NCBI GenBank assembly: GCA_002723085.1
Contig: PBNK01000008.1
Coordinates: 1-34,304, forward strand
DNA length: 34,304 bases
Origin: Crocinitomicaceae bacterium
GTDB taxonomy: Bacteria > Bacteroidota > Bacteroidia > Flavobacteriales_D > Parvicellaceae
Direction: 5' to 3'
Under the pieces are notes generated by a model. That model was not told the origin of the DNA. It worked only from the letters and a program-made list of their open reading frames with translations, and did no database searches. Within the stretch, counting starts at the first letter, position 1; each line of letters begins with the position of its first letter. Shown here piece after piece: positions 22,388-34,304 of this stretch. The translations under genes were made by a program, and so were the position numbers.

Positions 22388-22430
22388 TTTCTGTTTATTT
22401 ACACAAAAATTCTGCTGCATAATTTACCAT

Positions 22431-22776
22431 TTATTGATGATTATGACCTACATCATTAACTACTTGAAGTTCCCAATTGAAAAGAAAATTATTTGAATTA
22501 CTAATAGAATCAATTTTAGAATAGAAATAATTTGCTCTTTCATACCTATTTATCCCTAATGCATTAGCCGCAGGTGTTATTCTTAATGAAGGGGCATTAG
22601 AATTATTATCGTTAGATCAAATATGAATGTATCGATTATTGTTGAAAATATTTTCTAAATTATAATAGATGTGTTTTTAAATCCATAGGGAAATGCAAAT
22701 GATGTATCAGGTATGTATACCAGCCCGAACATGTTTAGGAACATCAATTTAGTAGGATTCAAAATTGAATGATTAT
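22431..22776 (-). pseudogene. Decayed 3' end of an alpha/beta-hydrolase-like gene
   Basis: Read on the minus strand, one frame ending at TAA 22433-22431 gives a well-formed C-terminus including APSLRITPAANALGINRYE, then NYFYSKIDS and VVNDVGHNHQ. This resembles the ends of a Bacteroidota family of secreted alpha/beta-hydrolase-like proteins (recalled similarity, with a conserved VGH near the end). The same frame is broken by a TGA at 22622-22620. Further upstream, a block NPTKLMFLN...FAFPYGF lies in another frame. Adding one A to the A5 run near 22675 joins it to KHIYYNLENIF. The 5' part is missing; the lamin-tail gene ATG follows at 22803 on the other strand. It fills the 415-bp stretch without an intact gene. 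Confidence 0.6.
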
Positions 22777-22802: not shown

Positions 22803-23501
22803 ATGTCACGTAGAATACAAAATTTATGTTTTTTTATTTTAATTATCTCTCTATTGGGTTTAAACTCTATAAAATGTGCTAAGACTGATGATGTTGTACC
22901 GATCAATACCAATCCTTCCGATTCTACTGGAAATGGTGGTGGAATTGATTCATCAGGAAATACAGGTGGAGTAACTGATTCGTTTGCTGGTTTTATTTTA
23001 AATGAAGTTTTATACGACCCCCCTGGTGCACTTGCAGGAGATGCAAATGGAGATGGTGTTCGTGACCCCAATGATGATGAATTTTTAGAATTTGTTAATC
23101 ATTCAGATTCTTCATATAACCTTAGTGGATATATGATTTTTGATGCAGATAGATTAGCTTTAGGAACACCAAATCATGTATTTCCTGAAAATACTTTTAT
23201 AAACCCTGAACAAGCAGTTGTGGTATTTGGTGGAGGAACTCCATCAGGTTCATTTGGTGGTGCTCAAGTTTTTGTTGCTTCAAATCAGGTTTTAAATCTT
23301 AATAATTCTGGGGATTTTATGACTTTAACAGATAGTTTAGGAAATGTAATTATTGAATTTGATATTACCCCTTTATCTGATAATCCAAATGAATCATATA
23401 CAAGGTCACCCGATATTACTGGAGATTTCATGCAACATAATTCTGTAATTAGTGGCACTTTATTTTCTCCAGGTACAAATGCTGATGGAAGTTCATTTTA
23501 A
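22803..23501 (+). CDS. Lamin-tail-domain lipoprotein (putative)
   Basis: The 232-residue protein has a signal sequence ending LNSIKC, a poor but possible lipobox with Cys at about 25, then a Gly/Ser/Thr-rich linker and a lamin-tail domain (LTD) from about 62: FILNEVLYDPP, the acidic DANGDGVRDPNDDEFLEFVN, NLSGYMI, then the strand pattern up to the C-terminus. DANGDGVRDPNDDE resembles a calcium-binding loop. LTDs are common in exported Bacteroidota proteins and often accompany nucleases or phosphatases; this copy has no enzyme domain. The SGNH hydrolase gene follows after 12 bp, so the two are likely co-expressed. Lipidation is uncertain because Lys precedes the Cys. Confidence 0.72.
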   Translation: MSRRIQNLCFFILIISLLGLNSIKCAKTDDVVPINTNPSDSTGNGGGIDSSGNTGGVTDSFAGFILNEVLYDPPGALAGDANGDGVRDPNDDEFLEFVNHSDSSYNLSGYMIFDADRLALGTPNHVFPENTFINPEQAVVVFGGGTPSGSFGGAQVFVASNQVLNLNNSGDFMTLTDSLGNVIIEFDITPLSDNPNESYTRSPDITGDFMQHNSVISGTLFSPGTNADGSSF

Positions 23502-23513
23502 TCTAATTATCAA

Positions 23514-24290
23514 ATGAAATTTTTTTTAACTAATTGGTTACTTTTTTTATTAATAAGTTGCTTTAATGCACAAGAAAAAACAATTAATGAAAATTTTTCT
23601 TTTGATAAAAAAAGTAAAGTACTTATGATAGGAAATAGTTTTACTTTTTATTGGAATCTGCCTCAAGTTGTTGAAAGAATGTTGGTTGACAATGGATTTA
23701 ATTACGAAGTTACTCAACAAACTATAGGTGGTTCTCAATTAAAAAAGCACTGGGATTTAAACACTAAAAACGATTATCAAATTGAAAATTATGATTATGT
23801 TGTTTTTAATGATCACAGCACTTACCCATTAAAAAAGCTTGACACATCTTCAAAATATTTTAATCTATTTTGTTCATTAGCAATAAGTAAAAATGTAAGG
23901 CCTTTTGTTTTTGGAACTTGGGAATATCAAATGTTAAAAGATCTTTCACAAAATAAAAAAAGAAATACCATGAGTATTTTAGACTCTTTAGCTTCTATAA
24001 ACAATGCAATATACGTTCCAGTGGGTAATGCTTTTGAATTAGCTGAAAGAAAATACCCTGAACTGGATTTATTTATGGATGACAATAAGCATCCATCTCC
24101 TAATGGAACCTATTTAGCAGCATGTGTATTTTATTCTATGTTAACAAAAGAAAGTTGTATTGGCGTAGCAAGAAGGTTTATTGGAACTGATAGTAATGGA
24201 AAAAAAATATATTACATTATTACAGAATCAAGAGCTTCAAAAAAATGTCAAGAAATAGCAGATATAATTACTGCTCCTCTAAGAAATTAA
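23514..24290 (+). CDS. Secreted SGNH/GDSL-type hydrolase
   Basis: The 258-residue protein begins with a signal peptide (about 1-20, ending SCFNAQ) and has the SGNH fold markers: block I LMIGNSFTFYW with catalytic Ser42, a Gly in block II (GGS near 72), Asn in block III (FNDHS, Asn99), and block V DDNKHPSPNGTY with Asp190 and His193. Such enzymes act as esterases or lipases on carbohydrate acetyl groups or lipids; the substrate here is unknown. It belongs with the preceding lamin-tail gene (12-bp gap). The TAA overlaps the convergent porin stop by 4 bases across a TTAA palindrome. Confidence 0.85.
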   Translation: MKFFLTNWLLFLLISCFNAQEKTINENFSFDKKSKVLMIGNSFTFYWNLPQVVERMLVDNGFNYEVTQQTIGGSQLKKHWDLNTKNDYQIENYDYVVFNDHSTYPLKKLDTSSKYFNLFCSLAISKNVRPFVFGTWEYQMLKDLSQNKKRNTMSILDSLASINNAIYVPVGNAFELAERKYPELDLFMDDNKHPSPNGTYLAACVFYSMLTKESCIGVARRFIGTDSNGKKIYYIITESRASKKCQEIADIITAPLRN

Positions 24291-25579
24291 AATTTTAGCT
24301 GAAAAACGCATTCAAGATTTAGTTGATTTAAATCTGAAGAATTTGGGAAATTATAATATGTAGCCATTAGTTGTGTTTTTACGGCTTTATTAGAGAAATA
24401 TTTTGAAAACCCAGCACCCATTGAATCATAATTAAGAAGTAAAGAATTATCGTTACTAAATTCCTTATAAGATTGTCCCCATTTTAAATCTATTGACCAA
24501 TCACTATTAAATAAATAACCAGCTTGAATATTATAAGCATTTCCTAATACAAGGTAATTGCTGATTTGGGTTGGTTCTAATAGATCAGTTCCAGCAGAAT
24601 TTAATGAAGATCCATGTAATTGATAAGCTGCTGTATTAACATATTCAGCAAGAAAATTAAAACCTTTATACTTAAATAAAAGGTCTACATAGTTTTTGAG
24701 GTAATTAGGAAACATATTTAAACCTGTGGAATCATAAAATACAAAAGTTTCTCTAGGTGGATCAAATCCAGGGTCAGGTTCAAGATAGTGGCCTTCACCA
24801 ACTGAGTGACTTGCCCCAATATTTAAACTAGATGCGGCACCAAACATTAATTTAGGTTTACTTTCTTTTGTTATATCGTGGCCTATTAACTCATTGCCAT
24901 TTGAAAAGAAACCAAATGGATATAGATTCATTCTTGCCCCATATTTAAGTCCCCCTTTATCTGTGTCATTTGAAAGAACTCCAAATGAATTTTTTCCATC
25001 TCCACTTGTAATAGCAGCAAAAGTTTTTAACCCAATACTACCTAATGAATATCTAGTTTCAATGAATAGACCAAACTCTCTTCCTGTTTTACAAAAAACT
25101 TTACTCAAATTATTTCTTGAAGCAAATTGAAGATTATATTCCATCATTTGCATAGAATGATTATTAAATGGAGATTGCTTTTGACCAAAATAAATACTAA
25201 TATTTTTTGTTGGATGATAACCAGCCCATGCATCCAATAATGGATAGGGATCACTAAAATCTGTTTGAATTAAAAAAGAAATCTCTCCATTATTTAAGCT
25301 TCCACTAACATTGAAGTATGCTCTCTTTACACCAAAGTAATTTTTAGAATTTTGAGTAGTATCGTCAAATCTAGAATTTAAAAAACTGGGCTGAGCCATT
25401 CCCCCAATTTTAAATAAATGAGTAGAATCATCAAAATTAAATAATATCCCATTTCCTAATGAATAAGAATATTCATTGTTTTTTTCAAATGTAGAGTTTG
25501 TAAATTCTTGTGTTTCCTGGGAATATAAATAATTAAAAAACAAAAGAGATATTAGAAATAAGGTGTATTTATTAATCAT
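24287..25579 (-). CDS. Outer-membrane porin (O/P type), copy 1
   Basis: The 430-residue protein has a signal peptide (about 1-20) and a beta-barrel of the porin O/P family: FGVKRAYFNVSGSLNNGEIS, TDFSDPYPLLDAWAGYHP, YFGQKQSPFNNHSMQMME, and a C-terminal FQLKF. It is the last gene of a four-gene unit; its ATG overlaps the M14 peptidase stop (ATGA). The family is often called phosphate-selective, but many Bacteroidota members have no known selectivity, so the substrate is open. It is a paralogue of the porin at 27105-28403; both carry the LDAW block, GQK, and LKYG segment in the same order. Confidence 0.85.
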   Translation of the reverse strand: MINKYTLFLISLLFFNYLYSQETQEFTNSTFEKNNEYSYSLGNGILFNFDDSTHLFKIGGMAQPSFLNSRFDDTTQNSKNYFGVKRAYFNVSGSLNNGEISFLIQTDFSDPYPLLDAWAGYHPTKNISIYFGQKQSPFNNHSMQMMEYNLQFASRNNLSKVFCKTGREFGLFIETRYSLGSIGLKTFAAITSGDGKNSFGVLSNDTDKGGLKYGARMNLYPFGFFSNGNELIGHDITKESKPKLMFGAASSLNIGASHSVGEGHYLEPDPGFDPPRETFVFYDSTGLNMFPNYLKNYVDLLFKYKGFNFLAEYVNTAAYQLHGSSLNSAGTDLLEPTQISNYLVLGNAYNIQAGYLFNSDWSIDLKWGQSYKEFSNDNSLLLNYDSMGAGFSKYFSNKAVKTQLMATYYNFPNSSDLNQLNLECVFQLKF

Positions 25580-27105
25580 AATTCTTTATTTAAAACGTAT
25601 CGATGAATTTTATTTACATCATCTGGCTTAATCACATTAAACCTTAAAAAACCAGATAGCATTTCAGGTTCTAATGTTTCAATAGCTAAGTTTGATCTTT
25701 TTTGATTCATTGGAACTATAAAAGTCCCTTTTTTAAAAACCTTTTTAGTTGTATATAATTCAGTATTAATTATATTTTCATAAAAACCTTGAAACAATAC
25801 AGGTGATTTTTTTAAAGAGGTAATTTTATAAGATTCTACTTCTAATAATTCATCAAATTTTAATGTGTCAATATCAAGACCTAATACTGATAATTTTGAA
25901 GCAACTTCATTGAGTTCATTTTCAATAACATAATAATTTGGACGTCTCCTAGTTAAAACAGGTTTGCATTTAAGCCCATTGTATAAAGTAACGTCAACAG
26001 GAATCAATTTATTTTCATATATATCTATCATGTTTAATGTATATCCTGATTTTTCTTTTTTATATTTTATAATGATTTCATCATTAAAATTATTTGCTTT
26101 TTCTAAAGCCAATTGTATTTCATGTGCATGATTAACTGATGTGTTTAAAAAGGAATAACTAAGTAAGTAAGTAGTAAAAACCCTTCTATTAAATGAATCT
26201 CTATTTAAACCAACACCTCTAACTTCCATTAACAATGAAATGGTGTTTGATAATGCATAAGATGTAGCACTAGATCGAGGACTTACAGAGCCCAAATTAA
26301 AATAGATGGCATTGTTTTTATGCTTTGAAGAAACATAATTGTGATACTTTAGTTCATGTTTATCTAGAAAAGGCTCTACTTTCTTTAAAAATAAATTTTC
26401 AGTTACTTCTTTAATGCTCGATGAAACATTTAAATTTCCAGAATACAGGAACATAACATCGAACATCTGAGTTACTCCATATTCTCCATATTTCACAAAA
26501 TCCACTTTATAAGGCTTATACTCATGAAAATCTACCATAACATCAGGTGAGAATTTGTTAATTGCCTTTTTAATATATATAGATTCTTGATTTGTGAATT
26601 TTGTTTGATCTCGATTTAAATCTTGTCCATTTGCTGCATACCTATCTTGTTTTTCATAACCATCTATATTTGCCATTGGAATAATAGCAATGCTTAGTTT
26701 TTCTTTTAAATGTTTTAAACTGTCTTCTTTAATTAAGTTATGTATTAAAAACAACATCCCTTCAGTACTTGCAGGTTCATTTCCATGAAGTCCACCCATA
26801 AAAGCAACTTTAGTTTTATAGTCTGTCTGATTCCCAATATAAACAATAGGTATTTCTTTTCCTTTTTGTGATGTACCAATAAATTCATATGATATTAATT
26901 TAGGGTATTTATTAACTAAATCGTCTAAAAACAACATCATTTCATCATATTTAGTAAACCCTTTATTTTTTTTAAATGCTGGAGTTGGAATAGTAATGTC
27001 AAAATCAGGAAAAAACTTATTGGTTATTTTTTTTGAATCTTGAGATTTTGAAGTTAAAATTAATCCAAATAGAGAGATAAAAAATATGATGTATTTATAT
27101 TTCAT
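25576..27105 (-). CDS. Secreted M14 zinc carboxypeptidase
   Basis: The 509-residue protein has a signal peptide (about 1-21) and an M14 metallocarboxypeptidase domain: zinc ligands His107 and Glu110 in GGLHGNEPASTEG and His194 in VDFHEY, an NRD (Asn164-Arg165) substrate contact, and the catalytic Glu294 in LLMEVRGVG. The C-terminal ~150 residues form an extra domain (VTLYNGLKCKP..., ETLEPEM) that is not recognised. Zinc carboxypeptidases of this type cleave C-terminal residues of peptides or, in some cases, cell-wall peptides. Its position between two porins, with TAATG/ATGA overlaps on both sides, suggests coordinated breakdown and import of peptide products, which is inference. Confidence 0.88.
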   Translation of the reverse strand: MKYKYIIFFISLFGLILTSKSQDSKKITNKFFPDFDITIPTPAFKKNKGFTKYDEMMLFLDDLVNKYPKLISYEFIGTSQKGKEIPIVYIGNQTDYKTKVAFMGGLHGNEPASTEGMLFLIHNLIKEDSLKHLKEKLSIAIIPMANIDGYEKQDRYAANGQDLNRDQTKFTNQESIYIKKAINKFSPDVMVDFHEYKPYKVDFVKYGEYGVTQMFDVMFLYSGNLNVSSSIKEVTENLFLKKVEPFLDKHELKYHNYVSSKHKNNAIYFNLGSVSPRSSATSYALSNTISLLMEVRGVGLNRDSFNRRVFTTYLLSYSFLNTSVNHAHEIQLALEKANNFNDEIIIKYKKEKSGYTLNMIDIYENKLIPVDVTLYNGLKCKPVLTRRRPNYYVIENELNEVASKLSVLGLDIDTLKFDELLEVESYKITSLKKSPVLFQGFYENIINTELYTTKKVFKKGTFIVPMNQKRSNLAIETLEPEMLSGFLRFNVIKPDDVNKIHRYVLNKEL

Positions 27106-28403
27106 TAAAAAGCTATTTGAACCATTAACCTAAATATATTTTCATTTCCTTGGTATTCAACTTCAAAAACATCTCTAATTATTGCATCATCAACATAAGT
27201 ATAAGATGCTTGAATTTTGTATGAATAATTTTTAAAAAGGTACTTGCTTATACCAATAGTATAATATTTATTTCTGTTGTAAAAAGCAGAGTTATTCATG
27301 AATGAATATTCATCCGGCATTAAATTGGTATATCGACCATCAATTGAAAACAATGATTTAAAAAGGTATCCTCCTTGAATATTTAAACCACTTCCAAGCA
27401 TCATTCTTCCTTTTATGTAATTTTCAACAGATCCATTAAATGATGTTGACACAGTTCCATTATTTCTGACTCTTTGTGAAATATCTTCAGGTATGAAAGC
27501 TTTAGTTTTTACAAATTCTGCAATAAGAGAAAAGCCTCTAAATTTAAAAAGTAAATCTCCACCATATTTTAAAAAATTTGGAAGACTGTATTCGTCCAAA
27601 TTGTTCATATAAAGAATATCACCATTACCTCTACCCCTTCTACTACTGATTCCAACATTATAACTTCCATTAATACCAATCATAAACTTTGGTGTTAATT
27701 CTCTAACCATATCAACTTGCCTAAATTGACCAAAGTTTCTAAATGTACCTAATGGCAAAATATTGATCCTTACTCCATATTTCAATCCTCCAAAATCATT
27801 TGAAATTGCGTTTGACCCGTCACCATTTGTTATGTTTAACATAGGTTTAATAACAGTCTTTCTTCCTAATTTAAATTTACCATCTAGAAAGACACCAACT
27901 TCTCTAATGCTTGAAAAAGCAGAAGTTAGTCTACTTCTTTCAGGCAATTGTAATGAATTAGAAGCCATTTGAAGTTCAATATTGTCTGTTGGGGTTGCTT
28001 TTTGACCTACTATGATTTTTATTTTTTTACTAAACTTATATCCTATCCAAGCATCAAGTAAAACTCCAGATAGTTCTCCATCTCCAGCATCTGATTGAGC
28101 TAAATCAACTTGTAACCTATAACTGAAAGCAGGATTTAATTGATTTCCAGAAAGACGCAATCTAACCCTTCTAGCTCTAAATCTATTATATCTATTCTCG
28201 TCGTTTATTTCGGAGGAATCAAAAACAATTGATTTTGATTCAAATAAAGATTGTGAATAACCTCTTATTACGGTTTTATGATTATCATCAGAACTGGCAA
28301 AAACTAATCCATTTCCAGGTATATAATCACCAAGTACTAAATCTTGAGAATTAATTGAATTAAATAAACTAAAAAGTAATATTGAATAACAAATCCTTAA
28401 CAT
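27105..28403 (-). CDS. Outer-membrane porin (O/P type), copy 2
   Basis: The 432-residue protein has a signal peptide (about 1-19, then QDLVLGDYIPG) and the O/P porin pattern: RFRARRVRLRLSGNQLNP, LLDAWIGYKF, IIVGQKATPTDNIELQM, GGLKYGVRINILPLG and a C-terminal aromatic (QIAF). Its stop overlaps the M14 start by one base (TAATG), and it starts 7 bases after the cupredoxin T9SS gene, so it is internal to the unit. It resembles the porin at 24287-25579 throughout and is probably a duplicate; the two have diverged considerably in sequence, suggesting different cargo. Confidence 0.85.
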   Translation of the reverse strand: MLRICYSILLFSLFNSINSQDLVLGDYIPGNGLVFASSDDNHKTVIRGYSQSLFESKSIVFDSSEINDENRYNRFRARRVRLRLSGNQLNPAFSYRLQVDLAQSDAGDGELSGVLLDAWIGYKFSKKIKIIVGQKATPTDNIELQMASNSLQLPERSRLTSAFSSIREVGVFLDGKFKLGRKTVIKPMLNITNGDGSNAISNDFGGLKYGVRINILPLGTFRNFGQFRQVDMVRELTPKFMIGINGSYNVGISSRRGRGNGDILYMNNLDEYSLPNFLKYGGDLLFKFRGFSLIAEFVKTKAFIPEDISQRVRNNGTVSTSFNGSVENYIKGRMMLGSGLNIQGGYLFKSLFSIDGRYTNLMPDEYSFMNNSAFYNRNKYYTIGISKYLFKNYSYKIQASYTYVDDAIIRDVFEVEYQGNENIFRLMVQIAF

Positions 28404-28410
28404 TTAAGCA

Positions 28411-30252
28411 TTAATCAACAACAATTATTTTGTGAATTACTACTCCGTTTTTATTGGAACATTCAACAAAATAAATATTGGTTGACAAATGAGATATATC
28501 AAGTCTCAACTTATTTGAAGATGGATTTTTGTTTATAACTACTCTTCCATATATGTCTCTAACTTTAACCTTATTTAAATTTTCTAGTGATGAAATATTT
28601 ATTAATCCATTAGAGGGATTAGGATATACTGAAATATAATTATTCATGCTTTGATTTATACCTGTTGGACATGCATCACAACTGCCCCAACATACAATAG
28701 ATAAAATGGTATCATTTGATGGTACTGTTAAAACTCTATTTGTGTTAGTAGTATCTCCATTAGTACATGATGCAGTAGGGTCATTTTGCTCCTGAATTGA
28801 CCATGAATCTGCTGAAAATTTATATTCAATTGATAATCCAGAATCTAATGGTATAGAAATTTCCCAAATATCATCTCCATCAGTATCACTCATTGCATTA
28901 CAATTGCCACACCAGCTGTTAAAGGTCCCATTTAATTCTGGAGTAGTGAATCCTGCTGTTACTTGACTCATATCAACTTTAAAAGTTACATTAGATTGAT
29001 TTGAAGGTGGAGCGGTAGGACATGTTCCATCTGTTTCACAACTTCCAAAACATGCTAGTAATGTAGTGTCTTGTGTTATATTTGGAAGAATACGATCATT
29101 CCAATTATTTGGATCAGAACAAGATAATCCTGATAAATCTTCTTTTGCTCCCCAATCACCTGCATTAGAAGGACTATTTAAGAAAATATAATTACCTGTT
29201 GTTCCTGCATTAATTGTTGCTATTCCTGTCCATATATTAGAACCTTGATCTGTCAATTGTATCGCCATTGCATCTCCTAATATTCCTCCTCCTGCATACA
29301 TACCAGCTGAACCAACTGTTATATTTGATGTATTAACAGAAAGAGTTACATTATAAGTCATTGGTGGTGTACCTCCACATAAAGGATAGGGACAAGAAGA
29401 TGTTTGCATTGAAGATGAACCATCAGAACAATTAACACCACCGAAAACCCAATTTCCAACATTTGCTGATGCTGTATCTTTCCATGCCCATGAATCAAGG
29501 TACTCCCATGGTTGTCCACTTCCATCAACATTAATATCTCCAAAAGTTTCTATAACATTTCCATTATAGAACAATTCAATTGCATCATCACCATTTTGGG
29601 AGATACTACTAGTTGCAAGTAGAACATGATCAAAAATTGAAAAACAACTCCCAAAATAAGAATTCATAGCAACAGTATCTCTAGCAATAAATACATGTTC
29701 GCCCATATTAACACTTATTGATGGAAATGTATATTCTTGACCATCAGATCCTCCCCCATTATTAGCAACTCCAACTCCATAAAGGCTTAAGTCAGAAATA
29801 TTTTGATTTGCAGTAAATTGTATTGCTTTTCCTTGAGAACCATTAGTTACAGTTGCCATTGATGAAGGTATATTTAAGTCAAATATTCCTGTTAAGGTAA
29901 GATCAAAAATTGAAGGTGAATTGACAATTATACTTCCAACCATACCACCGCCAGCATGAGGATCACATTGATAATCATATGTTCCAGAAATTGTAAATAC
30001 ATGTTGAAATGTCCAACCAGATCCGAGTGAATTTCCAAAGCTTTCAGGATTGTTTGGGAAGGTTGTTTGAGTTCCGTTAACATTATGTGTCCCTGACGTA
30101 CAAACAAAAGTTACCGTATCATTTAAATTAATGGTTAAACTTGAAGGTGAAAATGACATTCCAGCTGTAGAAACCGTATGATTTGTTTGTCCAATAAAAT
30201 TAGATAAAACAAAAAAAGATGATAAAAATAAAGTAAGTATAGTTTTTTTCAT
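28411..30252 (-). CDS. T9SS-exported cupredoxin, lamin-tail and carbohydrate-binding-like modules
   Basis: The 613-residue protein begins MKKTILTLFL (start 30252; an upstream in-frame ATG at 30276 would add MYYLYIIN and is less likely). Signal peptide 1-22. Residues 25-112 form a type 1 copper (plastocyanin-like) domain: His56 (GTHNVNG), Cys96, His99 and Met104 in a CxxHxxxxM pattern. Residues about 118-290 are lamin-tail-like. Then module A (300-412), module B (421-530; NGTFNSWCG and CWGSCDAC, a CBM/E-set-like fold by inference) and a T9SS type A sorting domain (about 537-613; YPNPSNGLI, VRDIYGR). The product should be secreted or displayed by T9SS. It heads a unit with porin, M14 peptidase and porin; modules A and B are shared with the giant protein upstream. 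Confidence 0.84.
   Translation of the reverse strand: MKKTILTLFLSSFFVLSNFIGQTNHTVSTAGMSFSPSSLTINLNDTVTFVCTSGTHNVNGTQTTFPNNPESFGNSLGSGWTFQHVFTISGTYDYQCDPHAGGGMVGSIIVNSPSIFDLTLTGIFDLNIPSSMATVTNGSQGKAIQFTANQNISDLSLYGVGVANNGGGSDGQEYTFPSISVNMGEHVFIARDTVAMNSYFGSCFSIFDHVLLATSSISQNGDDAIELFYNGNVIETFGDINVDGSGQPWEYLDSWAWKDTASANVGNWVFGGVNCSDGSSSMQTSSCPYPLCGGTPPMTYNVTLSVNTSNITVGSAGMYAGGGILGDAMAIQLTDQGSNIWTGIATINAGTTGNYIFLNSPSNAGDWGAKEDLSGLSCSDPNNWNDRILPNITQDTTLLACFGSCETDGTCPTAPPSNQSNVTFKVDMSQVTAGFTTPELNGTFNSWCGNCNAMSDTDGDDIWEISIPLDSGLSIEYKFSADSWSIQEQNDPTASCTNGDTTNTNRVLTVPSNDTILSIVCWGSCDACPTGINQSMNNYISVYPNPSNGLINISSLENLNKVKVRDIYGRVVINKNPSSNKLRLDISHLSTNIYFVECSNKNGVVIHKIIVVD
28668..28993 (-). repeat. B module in the cupredoxin protein
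   Basis: Copy of the B module (about 110 residues, VDM start, NGTFNSWCGNC, DGDDIWE, IEYKF, CWGSC end). It is related at DNA and protein level to the copies at 30633-30958, 32527-32862 and 34137-34304. Confidence 0.7.
29018..29358 (-). repeat. A module in the cupredoxin protein
   Basis: Copy of the A module (about 113 residues, VTLSVNT start, MYAGGGILGDAM, WTGIATINAGTTGNYIFLN, CFGSCETDGTCP end). Other copies are at 30985-31331, 32169-32511 and 32880-33219. Confidence 0.7.
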
Positions 30253-30330: not shown

Positions 30331-30358
30331 AAAAAAAGGGAGCAATATGCTCCCTTTT
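30331..30358 (-). terminator. Intrinsic terminator of the giant T9SS gene
   Basis: On the minus strand AAAAGGGAGCA (30358-30348), a 3-nt loop and TGCTCCCTTTT (30344-30334) make a perfect 11-bp stem followed by more T's (to 30331). It lies 18 bases beyond the stop codon of the giant gene and before the cupredoxin gene. This is the strongest hairpin in the window and separates the giant gene from the cupredoxin-porin unit. Confidence 0.88.
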
Positions 30359-30376
30359 GAAATTAATGTGATATAT

Positions 30377-33300
30377 CTAATGGGTTACTAATATTCTTTT
30401 TACGGTAATTCCATTTTTGTCAATGCATTCAATAAAATACATGTTATTTGATAAATCTGATACATCAATGCTAATTTTTGATGATGTTGGAACAAGATTC
30501 ATGATTATTCTTCCAGTAATATCTCTTAAAATAACGTTATTTAATTTATTATGAGAGATCACATTAAGAAGTTCTGATGCAGGGTTAGGAAAAACAGTAA
30601 TATCATTAGTATTATTTGATATCAATCCAGACGAACATGGATCACAACTTCCCCAACACACTTGAGATAATGTAACATCAGTTCCCGGGACAACAAAGAC
30701 TCTATTGGTATTTACTGTGTCTCCATTAGTACATGGTGCAGTTGGATCATTTATTTCTTGTATACTCCATGTATCAGCAGAGAATTTATATTCAATTGCC
30801 AATCCTGAATCTAAGGGAATGGTTACCTCCCAAATATTATCTCCATCGGAATCACTCATTGAATTACAATTTCCACACCATCCATTAAATGTTCCATTTA
30901 ATTCAGGTGTTGTGAATCCAGCTGTAACTTGGCTCATATCTACTTGGAAGGTTACATTTACTTGTGGTGTTGGTGGTGGGGATGATGGACAACTTCCGTC
31001 AGTTTCGCAACTTCCAAAACAATGTAACATTGTAGTGTCAGATGTTATGTTAGGGAATGTTCTATCGTTCCAGTTGTTTGGATCTGCACAAGCTTGACCT
31101 GTAAGGTCTTCTTTTGCTCCCCAATCACTTCCACTGGTTGGACTGTTTAAGAAAATGTAATTACCGGTTGTTCCAGCAATCAATGTTGCAACACCAGTCC
31201 ATGTTCCATCACCATCAGGATCGGATAAAGGAACAGCTATTGCATCACCTAATACACCTCCACCTGCATACATTCCATTTGGACCAACTGTAATTGTTGA
31301 TGTATTCACAGATAAAGTAACATCATAAGTAACTGGTGGTGGTGGTGGTGGCAATGTTGTTTTGCTGTAAATAAATCTCCACCATCCTGCACCCATATTT
31401 ATATCAGCAGTCATAGTATCACCAGAAGCTGCAAAACTTAGCGTATAGTCTATAAATGGCGGGGCACCAGCCGGACTTGATAGCTCAGATCCATTAATAG
31501 CTTTAGGTATACCTAAATGAGCACCAGTTCCATTTATTCTTAGCACATTTGATGTTGAATCGTAATGATATGTAGAAGATGCTAATCCATCATGAGGAGC
31601 TACAGGGACATCACATCTATCCCCATTTCCGTCTTGCCAATTTTCAACCCATGTTGAACCATCCATAAAATGTGAATACAGTCCTGTTGAATCAAAATGA
31701 ATTGAATCGTCAAACAAACAAGCTCTGGTAACTAGATCAGTAGAGCTATTTGACCACCATGAGATATCCCCTTGGTTAGGACCAACACCTATTGCACCAG
31801 CAGATTCAACCAATTTCCATGTTCCTAGTAAAGGATCATTAAATGATGGGAGTTGATTTGCACATGTATCAGTATAAAATGTTACAGGACCAACCCAAGA
31901 ACTTAATGATGTTGAACCAGTACTAAACCCACAATCAGCTTTAACATAAACATCATATCCAGTATTACAAGTCAAACCAGTTAATGTATAACATGAATCC
32001 ATAACCATTGGTACGAGTGTTCCAGAACCAGGACTAAAGCCAATAGGGCCATATGTTAATTCATAAACAGAAGCACTAGGATGATTCCAACAAATTTGAA
32101 TTGATGTATCGGTTAACCAAGGAGCCATATTGTAAGCAGTTAAATTGTAGGGATCTGGACATATAACTGGACAAGTTCCGTCAGTTTCGCAACTTCCAAA
32201 ACAGTGTAATAGTGTTGTATCTGAATTAATTGTTGGTAATATTCTATCGTTCCAGTTATTTGCATCTGCACAAGGTTGACCGCTTAAATCTTCTTTAGCA
32301 CCCCAATCTCCAGTACTAGTAGGACTGTTTAAGAAAATGTAATTACCAGTTGTGCCAGCATTAATAGTTGCCACTCCACTCCAAATACCAGAACCTTGAT
32401 CGGTTAATTGAACAGCCATTGCATCTCCAAGAACTCCTCCACCTGCATACATTCCATTTGATCCAACTGTAATGTTTGCTGTATTAACCGATAATGTTAC
32501 ATTATATGTTGGTGGTGGTGAAGTAGGACATGTTGTACAGCTATTGTAACAAACTGTTCCTAAAGTTGAGTCAGATGATGGAATAGTTAATGATCTATTA
32601 GTATATCCTCCATTTGTTACTGTACATGGTTCTCCACCATTGAAATTCTCCTGATCATTCCATCCATTAACAGTAAATTTATACTCAATAGATGAACCAG
32701 CTGTTAATGGTAAAGTAACGTCCCAAACATTATCTCCATCAGCGTCTGACATTGCATTACATGATCCACACCATCCATTAAACGTTCCATTTATGTTAAC
32801 TGTGTATGGCGCAGTTTGTGAACCAGAGTACTGATTCATGTCTACACTAAATGTAACATCTGATGTTGTTGGTGGAGATGGACATGTTCCGTCAGTTTCG
32901 CAACTCCCAAAACAATGTAATAATGTAGTATCTGATGTTATGTTAGGAAGAATTCTGTCATCATAGTTATTAGGGTCACTACAAGGTTGACCTCCAAGAT
33001 TTTCTTTTGCACCCCAATCACTTCCACTAGTTGGACTATTTAAGAAAATGTAATTACCAGTTGTGCCAGCATTGATTGTTGCAACACCGCTCCATATACC
33101 AGAACCTTGATCAGTTAATTGAATCGCCATTGCATCTCCAAGTACGCCTCCACCTGCATACATTCCGTTTGATCCAACAGTAATGTTTGCTGTGTTAACT
33201 GACAATGTAACATCATATGTTGTTGGTGGTGATGATCCACAAAGTGGAAATGGACAATTTGAAGATTGAGTAGTTGATGAACCGTCAGTGCAATTAACAG

Positions 33301-34304
33301 CACCGTATACCCAATTACCAATGTTTGCAGCAGCTGTATCTTTCCAAGCCCATGCATCTTCAGTATCCCAACATGTAGGTGAACTACATCCGGCACCCTG
33401 TGTATCAGGATCGTCTCCTATTACACCATATATTTCTAGAGAGTTATAATATTCAGTGTTTCCATTTAAAGTAATTTCATTAAACCCTACTGCACCACTT
33501 CCAAACTGGATTTTAACACTTCTATCGAAAGCAACTCCAGCTACAGTTATGGTGTTTAAACCTAATGATAAAGGTTGAGCATTTGCCTGAAACCAATTTC
33601 CATTAGCAACAGTTTTTACCACACGGTAATTAGCACCACCTGATGGTAAACTAGTTACATTAATCACAAATGTTTGTTGTGCACCGTTGTTACCATCACC
33701 CAATTGAGGCGCAACAAATACATGTGTCCATGTTGCGTTTGGCCCATTTGCAAATAATGAGGATTCTGATGCTATATTAGATGACTTAATCAATTCAAAT
33801 GCATCATTTCCATTTGCTGTTGGGAATCCACTTTCGTGAAATAATGTTGGGAACGCAGCACCTGGAAACTGTTCTAAACAACCGTCAAAATAAGTTGATA
33901 ATGCGGCACTATCTCTACATAATAATACATGTTGTGCTGAACTAACAGAACGTACTGGAAAATTAAAAGTGGTTCCAGCAGTTGTACTTCCATTTGAATA
34001 TTGTTTGATTGAATATAAACTCATATCAGCAATTGAATTATTAGCAGTTAACATAACTGCTTTTCCTGAACTACCGCTGATACTCATATCCATTATTGCA
34101 GTAAATGTCAAATCAGCTGGTGTTGGTGGTGATGTTGGGCATGTTGTACAACTATTGTAACAAACTGTTCCTAAAGTTGAATCAGAAGCTGGAATTGTTA
34201 ATGACCTATTAGTAAATCCTCCATTTGTTACTGTACATGGTTCTCCACCATTGAAATTCTCCTGATCATTCCATCCATTAACAGTAAATTTATACTCAAT
34301 AGAT
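30377..34304 (-). CDS. Giant modular T9SS surface protein, C-terminal part
   Basis: The frame is open from the window edge to TAA at 30379-30377 (1308 codons visible); the real start lies outside. The TTG at 34111 is internal: the upstream codons encode a B module. Order from N-terminus: partial B module; lamin-tail-like domain with an inserted beta domain (TWTHVFVAPQLGD to about 33470); A module; B module; A module; fibronectin-III-like domain (about 32165-31870); lipocalin-like domain (LLGTWKLVESAG, about 31868-31370); Pro-rich linker; A module; B module; T9SS type A sorting domain (FPNPASELLNV, LRDITGR). Linkers between modules are Pro/Ser/Thr-rich. The protein is probably attached to or released from the cell surface by T9SS; adhesion or glycan binding is inferred from the modules. 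Its terminator is at 30331-30358. Confidence 0.85.
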   Translation of the reverse strand, partial: SIEYKFTVNGWNDQENFNGGEPCTVTNGGFTNRSLTIPASDSTLGTVCYNSCTTCPTSPPTPADLTFTAIMDMSISGSSGKAVMLTANNSIADMSLYSIKQYSNGSTTAGTTFNFPVRSVSSAQHVLLCRDSAALSTYFDGCLEQFPGAAFPTLFHESGFPTANGNDAFELIKSSNIASESSLFANGPNATWTHVFVAPQLGDGNNGAQQTFVINVTSLPSGGANYRVVKTVANGNWFQANAQPLSLGLNTITVAGVAFDRSVKIQFGSGAVGFNEITLNGNTEYYNSLEIYGVIGDDPDTQGAGCSSPTCWDTEDAWAWKDTAAANIGNWVYGAVNCTDGSSTTQSSNCPFPLCGSSPPTTYDVTLSVNTANITVGSNGMYAGGGVLGDAMAIQLTDQGSGIWSGVATINAGTTGNYIFLNSPTSGSDWGAKENLGGQPCSDPNNYDDRILPNITSDTTLLHCFGSCETDGTCPSPPTTSDVTFSVDMNQYSGSQTAPYTVNINGTFNGWCGSCNAMSDADGDNVWDVTLPLTAGSSIEYKFTVNGWNDQENFNGGEPCTVTNGGYTNRSLTIPSSDSTLGTVCYNSCTTCPTSPPPTYNVTLSVNTANITVGSNGMYAGGGVLGDAMAVQLTDQGSGIWSGVATINAGTTGNYIFLNSPTSTGDWGAKEDLSGQPCADANNWNDRILPTINSDTTLLHCFGSCETDGTCPVICPDPYNLTAYNMAPWLTDTSIQICWNHPSASVYELTYGPIGFSPGSGTLVPMVMDSCYTLTGLTCNTGYDVYVKADCGFSTGSTSLSSWVGPVTFYTDTCANQLPSFNDPLLGTWKLVESAGAIGVGPNQGDISWWSNSSTDLVTRACLFDDSIHFDSTGLYSHFMDGSTWVENWQDGNGDRCDVPVAPHDGLASSTYHYDSTSNVLRINGTGAHLGIPKAINGSELSSPAGAPPFIDYTLSFAASGDTMTADINMGAGWWRFIYSKTTLPPPPPPVTYDVTLSVNTSTITVGPNGMYAGGGVLGDAIAVPLSDPDGDGTWTGVATLIAGTTGNYIFLNSPTSGSDWGAKEDLTGQACADPNNWNDRTFPNITSDTTMLHCFGSCETDGSCPSSPPPTPQVNVTFQVDMSQVTAGFTTPELNGTFNGWCGNCNSMSDSDGDNIWEVTIPLDSGLAIEYKFSADTWSIQEINDPTAPCTNGDTVNTNRVFVVPGTDVTLSQVCWGSCDPCSSGLISNNTNDITVFPNPASELLNVISHNKLNNVILRDITGRIIMNLVPTSSKISIDVSDLSNNMYFIECIDKNGITVKRILVTH
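30633..30958 (-). repeat. B module, last copy in the giant protein
   Basis: Protein reads VDMSQVTAGFTTPELNGTF and ends CWGSCDPC. At protein level it is almost the same as the B module of the cupredoxin gene (28668-28993), closer than to the internal B module of its own gene. Confidence 0.7.
30985..31331 (-). repeat. A module, third copy in the giant protein
   Basis: A module with MYAGGGVLGDAIAVPL and a DPDGDGTW insertion in place of DQGSGIW. A run of GGT triplets (about 31335-31351) just upstream encodes the polyproline linker. Confidence 0.7.
32169..32511 (-). repeat. A module, second copy in the giant protein
   Basis: A module with MYAGGGVLGDAMAVQL and TSTGDWGAKEDLSGQPC. It lies downstream of the internal B module and upstream of the fibronectin-III-like domain. 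Confidence 0.7.
32527..32862 (-). repeat. B module, internal copy in the giant protein
   Basis: B module with NINGTFNGWCGSC and a GGYTNRSL segment. Its stretch 32605-32693 is identical to 34216-34304 (89 bp without mismatch). Confidence 0.8.
32880..33219 (-). repeat. A module, first copy in the giant protein
   Basis: A module with MYAGGGVLGDAMAIQL and DRILPNITSDTTLLH. Separated from the following B module by a short PTTSD-type linker. Confidence 0.7.
34137..34304 (-). repeat. B module cut by the window edge
   Basis: Partial B module, open at the right edge. Its 34216-34304 part is an exact 89-bp copy of 32605-32693, and the remainder differs at only about ten positions. Confidence 0.8.

Follow-up and report, generated by a model that had tools for sequence, protein, structure and literature searches.

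A porin–M14 carboxypeptidase–porin gene unit in Bacteroidota that is likely to serve the harvesting of aspartyl peptides or polymers

We analysed contig PBNK01000008.1 of a Crocinitomicaceae bacterium (34,304 bases, hereafter the window), which carries a unit of four genes coding, in gene order, for a cupredoxin-bearing surface protein with a sorting tail of the type IX secretion system (T9SS), an O/P-type porin (porin 1), an M14 carboxypeptidase and a second O/P-type porin (porin 2) (Table 1). An earlier, sequence-only reading had described a tight unit, and when we recomputed the boundaries and junctions they agreed with it: a 7 bp gap is followed by overlaps of 1 bp and 4 bp. The families were recognised by Pfam above their curated cut-offs (Copper-bind, 49.7 bits; T9SS tail, PF18962, 53.7; Porin_O_P, PF07396, 46.4 for porin 1 and 24.4 for porin 2 against a cut-off of 20.9; Peptidase_M14, PF00246, 73.6). 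As had also been noted, SusC and SusD are absent from the unit and from its flanks in the window, as judged from the open reading frame list and Pfam. The unit is separated by a terminator-like hairpin from the preceding T9SS gene, which itself runs off the contig end.

Table 1. Features of the window around the four-gene unit
Feature	Position	Strand	Remarks
Upstream T9SS protein	30377-34303	-	LTD-like, CBM48/20-like and fn3 domains (Pfam); cut by contig end
Intrinsic-terminator-like hairpin with T run	30334-30358	-	Strong; between upstream T9SS gene and unit
Cupredoxin/T9SS surface protein gene	28411-30252	-	613 aa; signal-like N-terminus; residues 26-111 plastocyanin/azurin-type cupredoxin; ~117-293 LTD-like; two weakly CBM-like domains; 542-611 T9SS type A tail
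O/P-type porin 1 gene	27105-28403	-	432 aa
M14 carboxypeptidase gene	25576-27105	-	509 aa
O/P-type porin 2 gene	24287-25579	-	430 aa
DUF4886 protein	23514-24290	+	PF16227, 40.7 bits; convergent with unit; recurrent partner in 15 loci
LTD-domain protein	22803-23501	+	PF00932, 45.8 bits; homologue of the wider operon's LTD lipoprotein; homologues in 36 loci
PahZ1 gene remnant	22410-22726	-	C-terminal third; one frameshift, two in-frame stops

The M14 protein, used as query against 84,980 species genomes, brought up 61 loci across Bacteroidota, which span many habitats and families (a few bins are oddly named, Bdellovibrio and Algicola among them, and are probably mis-binned or misnamed). Porin genes adjoin the M14 gene in 57 of the 61 loci, and in nearly all homologous loci the porin–M14 spacing lies between −4 and +13 bp, so the arrangement is not due to chance; the larger overlaps in a few loci are a product of long start calls. 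In the other four loci, all from Bacteroidales (L079, L080, L087 and L088), a SusC/SusD pair, as judged from the sequences, replaces the porins. When gene neighbourhoods were compared across the 61 loci, conservation beyond close relatives was found for porin–M14–porin and not for the cupredoxin; the conserved core of the locus is porin–M14–porin. Cultured species in which this core is intact include Chryseobacterium angstadtii (L043) and Flavobacterium rakeshii (L048). The neighbours that recur around this core are the isoaspartyl dipeptidase IadA and the carrier DcuC (34 loci each), a homologue of poly(aspartic acid) hydrolase-1 (PahZ1, 30 loci), a MocR regulator with GntR and aminotransferase domains (26), DctA (23) and a DASS carrier (10). 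Outside the window's clade the usual order is MocR (mostly divergent), T9SS LTD protein, LTD lipoprotein, DcuC, IadA, porin, M14, porin and DctA. The IadA proteins score above the equivalog cut-off for beta-aspartyl peptidase (383 versus 331 bits) and DcuC above its own curated cut-off, while the SDF protein finds its best match in the DctA models, slightly below their cut-off. In a tree of 59 M14 proteins, 54 loci had at least one of PahZ1, IadA, DcuC, DctA and DASS in the flanking DNA examined; those without such a partner were the window, L058, and L033, L034 and L089, which are cut by a contig break close to M14 or its porin. Groups lacking IadA appear scattered among IadA-bearing ones, which suggests that IadA was lost or replaced, although the deep branches have weak support.

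The ligands of the complete type 1 copper site that had been claimed for the first protein of the unit (His56, Cys96, His99 and Met104) stand at the claimed positions, and the T9SS sorting domain predicts secretion; the carbohydrate-binding label was not borne out, as the matches stay below the Pfam cut-offs (CBM_20, 19.0 versus 23.3; CBM_48, 19.0 versus 22.4). Could the cupredoxin supply electrons or copper to surface chemistry in peptide processing? The ten related cupredoxin domains that we inspected keep the His-Cys-His-Met set, except that of L039, where the contig end cuts before the first His. Moreover, all six genomes of the window's family with enough upstream sequence code for a Copper-bind protein within several kilobases of M14, although no more than two Copper-bind domains exist in the whole window genome. 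Within the window's clade, the association of cupredoxin and M14 is real. However, the domain occurs in only 9 of the 61 loci, confined to the clade of the window and a single trio of marine genomes (L073, L075 and L076), and both the host protein (T9SS proteins of 746 to ~1400 aa, and a 148-aa open frame in L031) and its distance to M14 vary, the porin-adjoining gene in relatives often being without the domain. A copper or redox system was rejected as the core of the locus because 52 of the 61 loci lack the domain, and as an account of the unit we consider it highly improbable. As a domain, the cupredoxin is specific to certain lineages, where it sits on T9SS surface proteins that are themselves shuffled; it is not a defining part of the locus. 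Elsewhere in the window genome (L131:3228-4822, contig C13), a proteorhodopsin-like gene adjoins the gene for a short protein with a T9SS tail, the genome's one other cupredoxin of plastocyanin type.

The partner present in 30 loci at first resembled a weak polyhydroxybutyrate (PHB) depolymerase and is a close homologue of PahZ1 (PDB matches 6ve6, E 9e-55, and 9o7u, E 1e-49), with Ser176, Asp244 and His299 invariant. PahZ1 of Pedobacter is an endo-acting enzyme for the beta-amide bonds that link aspartates; its substrate must have three or more Asp units, and alpha-tri(Asp) is not attacked. The enzyme is kin to the PHB depolymerases, which cut beta-ester bonds (PMC4456602). The homologues in the loci are lipoprotein-like or carry a T9SS tail, features that make a position at the cell surface likely. 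Of 20 related genomes, the 11 with this M14 all gave PahZ1 matches (in the window a relic only) and the 9 without it gave none, a count that is not a probability since the genomes share ancestry. In an even draw of 296 genomes of the phylum, the M14 clade was present in 4 and PahZ1 in 15; in all three M14 genomes other than the window's, PahZ1 lay ~2–8 kb from M14; they include a member of a very distant family, in which PahZ1, an M20 peptidase and M14 stood side by side. Genomes that lack this M14 clade can have PahZ1 homologues too, often amid unrelated surroundings, and the presence of PahZ1 is therefore not enough to define the locus. In relatives an intact PahZ1 gene lies just past the LTD and DUF4886 genes, and at that place the window holds a remnant coding for about the last third of the protein, without the catalytic serine. 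In a distant family (L138:4022-12829 and L144:811-9730), one row holds PahZ1 (T9SS-tailed in L138), an M20 peptidase with a weak likeness to PahZ2 (E 3e-7), M14, a protein of the Na+/H+-antiporter family and an MFS transporter. In a second layout, without M14 (L139:8232-17913), PahZ1, an LTD protein, a DASS carrier, a DUF4886 protein, a SusD-like protein and a SusC-sized gene form one row.

The kinship of PahZ1 with enzymes that cut beta-ester bonds, and the recurrence of three kinds of C4-dicarboxylate carriers, would also fit a polyester of C4 acids such as poly(beta-malate), on which the PahZ1 homologues would act as esterases while the carriers imported malate. IadA, which passes its equivalog cut-off, and the M14 carboxypeptidase indicate amides instead, and we give a polyester substrate very little credence.

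In the carboxypeptidase, the zinc and catalytic residues claimed earlier (His107, Glu110, His194 and Glu294) were found in place and are, together with Arg165, invariant in 56 of 56 homologues; Asn164, which makes with Arg165 the Asn-Arg pair for the terminal carboxylate, is kept in 55 of 56. The structure model (pLDDT 91) has a separate, mostly beta C-terminal domain after the carboxypeptidase fold. Residues 40–328 form a funnelin fold, with Z scores of 26–29 against carboxypeptidases A, B, O and T and, in the case of the best-matching mature enzymes, ~250 residues aligned; the comparison, made with VIA-align, spanned residues 8–328. The enzyme had been called secreted; with a signal-like N-terminus, but lacking a T9SS tail and any evident lipobox, it is more likely to reside in the periplasm. 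The positions of its specificity pocket are given in bovine carboxypeptidase A numbering, and were mapped by gap-free counting from the catalytic Glu, backed by matching helix and strand positions. This pocket is shaped by positions 203, 253 and 255, and in carboxypeptidase O a basic residue at 255 gives a preference for acidic residues (PMC9925722). By counting, Arg277 (conserved in 52 of 56 homologues) maps to 253, Ser279 to 255, and Lys/Arg200 lies next to 203. These conserved basic residues near the specificity positions make a preference for acidic C-termini plausible.

The two porins are paralogous, as had been proposed (32% identity, E 5e-50). Porin 1, whose orthologues in our alignment A2 are 39–73% identical, was modelled mainly as beta strands (pLDDT 84), and a sequence search of the PDB found no relatives of it. 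It is basic and Arg-rich (isoelectric point, pI, 9.5), a charge in line with the passage of anions, and porin 2 is not basic (pI 5.7).

An aspartate-backbone polymer that bacteria are known to scavenge is cyanophycin, and the M14 enzyme might act on it or on its beta-Asp-Arg pieces, with IadA splitting the dipeptides. As far as they are described in PMC10206079, the cyanophycin utilization locus of Bacteroidetes (Ben Hania et al. 2017) likewise pairs an isoaspartyl dipeptidase gene with a transporter, and zinc enzymes annotated as M14 or aspartoacylase (M14/AspA-type) split beta-aspartyl dipeptides such as beta-Asp-Arg. In contrast to that locus, none of the 61 loci has a cyanophycinase near M14 or beside the dipeptidase and transporter genes, as determined by a two-round search with the CphB of the window genome, and PahZ1 and M14 are found instead. 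Judged by that description, the window enzyme differs from the AspA type in its export signal-like N-terminus and C-terminal extension, and it fits Peptidase_M14 far better than AstE_AspA (30.0 bits). Furthermore, its pocket position 255 is Ser and not the Asp of Arg/Lys-specific enzymes, with conserved basic residues nearby, and PahZ1 does not cut alpha-linked Asp. With cyanophycinase missing from the loci and PahZ1 inactive on alpha-linked Asp, we think cyanophycin scavenging by this locus improbable. The window organism itself probably makes and uses cyanophycin, as another contig (C41, L130:3179-7757) carries genes resembling those for CphA, CphB and IaaA next to one another, named from their sequences.

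We consider it likely that the unit provides the outer-membrane and periplasmic components of a system by which Bacteroidota harvest peptides or polymers of aspartyl, and most likely of beta-(iso)aspartyl, type. From gene content, co-location and co-occurrence, together with protein families, conserved residues and the relic, we infer the substrate, the location of M14, the scavenging and the direction of flux. The evidence for an aspartyl substrate is the pairing of porin and M14, the presence of PahZ1, IadA, C4-dicarboxylate carriers and MocR in the loci, the identity of PahZ1 and its co-occurrence with M14, the basic residues next to the pocket positions and the basic porin 1; in the window genome, IaaA beside CphA and CphB and the DASS and SDF carriers that it also codes for point the same way. 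The proposal of the sequence-only reading that peptides are processed and taken up at the outer membrane is thereby sharpened to aspartyl or isoaspartyl peptides or polymers by PahZ1, IadA and the C4-dicarboxylate carriers, whereas its redox or copper component is not a defining part. In the full system, a surface PahZ1-type hydrolase would cut the polymer outside the cell, two anion-type O/P porins would let acidic oligomers in, and the M14 carboxypeptidase, probably periplasmic, would take off C-terminal aspartate. Carriers of the DcuC, DctA or DASS type would then move aspartate or beta-Asp dipeptides over the inner membrane, and cytosolic IadA, or in the window's species possibly IaaA coded elsewhere, would complete the breakdown. 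The surface LTD and T9SS proteins, some with a cupredoxin in the window lineage, probably bind the substrate or a surface.

Several points weigh against this aspartyl reading. Intact PahZ1, present in 30 homologous loci, is reduced to a relic in the window; none of IadA, DcuC and DctA adjoins the unit there, and no IadA above the cut-off was found in the window genome, only weak amidohydrolase matches. Pocket position 255 is Ser and not Arg, and the mapping followed sequence and secondary structure, not measured geometry. The genomes compared share ancestry, and the natural beta-aspartyl polymer is hypothetical. The strongest rival is a general scavenging of acidic peptides, in which M14 would trim the acidic C-termini of ordinary peptides and PahZ1 and IadA would handle the isoaspartyl bonds of aged protein, with no special polymer involved. 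The spread of the locus over many habitats and families would suit it, and IadA enzymes have promiscuous activity and a role in the turnover of protein (PMC10206079). However, the constant pairing of porin and M14 with PahZ1, which needs a run of at least three Asp and spares alpha-tri(Asp), and the MocR regulator bound to the locus speak against it, and we regard this rival as rather unlikely. On the aspartyl reading, the window strain seems to have retained uptake and trimming and lost the surface depolymerase; given this loss, a natural reading is that it may live on oligomers freed by other cells.

Going further, and only tentatively, the locus could be a dedicated, regulated one for using a beta-aspartyl polymer that occurs in nature: PahZ1 outside the cell would work with two matched anion porins, an M14 exopeptidase of a new, acid-specific kind and, inside, IadA and C4-dicarboxylate carriers. 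It would then provide the physiological context of polyaspartate hydrolases, and relatives from the ocean, the window strain among them, may have given up the surface enzyme and subsist on shared products. These hydrolases are known from growth on synthetic polyaspartate. The company that PahZ1 keeps with IadA, C4-dicarboxylate carriers and the porin–M14–porin core offers a concrete natural pathway to test and suggests a natural home for these enzymes. An M14 clade so far uncharacterised, and its porins, gain a likely substrate class, and the locus may mark one path for the recycling of aspartate-rich nitrogen in marine and lake waters.

Among the closest known systems is the degradation of poly(aspartic acid) by PahZ1 and PahZ2 in Pedobacter sp. 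KP-2 and Sphingomonas sp. KT-1, studied with synthetic polymer (PMC4456602), which likewise combines an endo-type with an exo-type enzyme. Here the exo-type enzyme is the M14 carboxypeptidase and not the M20 PahZ2, porins, IadA and carriers are added, and the PahZ1 of the window is a relic. The SusCD-type polysaccharide and peptide utilization loci of Bacteroidota share import across the outer membrane with the help of surface proteins, and the four Bacteroidales loci pair the same M14, IadA and DcuC with SusC/SusD, whereas the window and most relatives use two O/P porins. The sequence-only reading had not recognised the combination as a described system, and we likewise found no description of such a locus (isoaspartyl dipeptidase with M14 and porin, or with DcuC) in the literature searched, most subscription papers lying outside it. 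All the enzyme families are already known; what seems new is their combination as a polymer utilisation locus, of which the window is a reduced example. LTD-like domains recur in surface proteins near most of the homologous loci, and in the window the T9SS protein upstream of the unit has repeated CBM-like and LTD-like domains.

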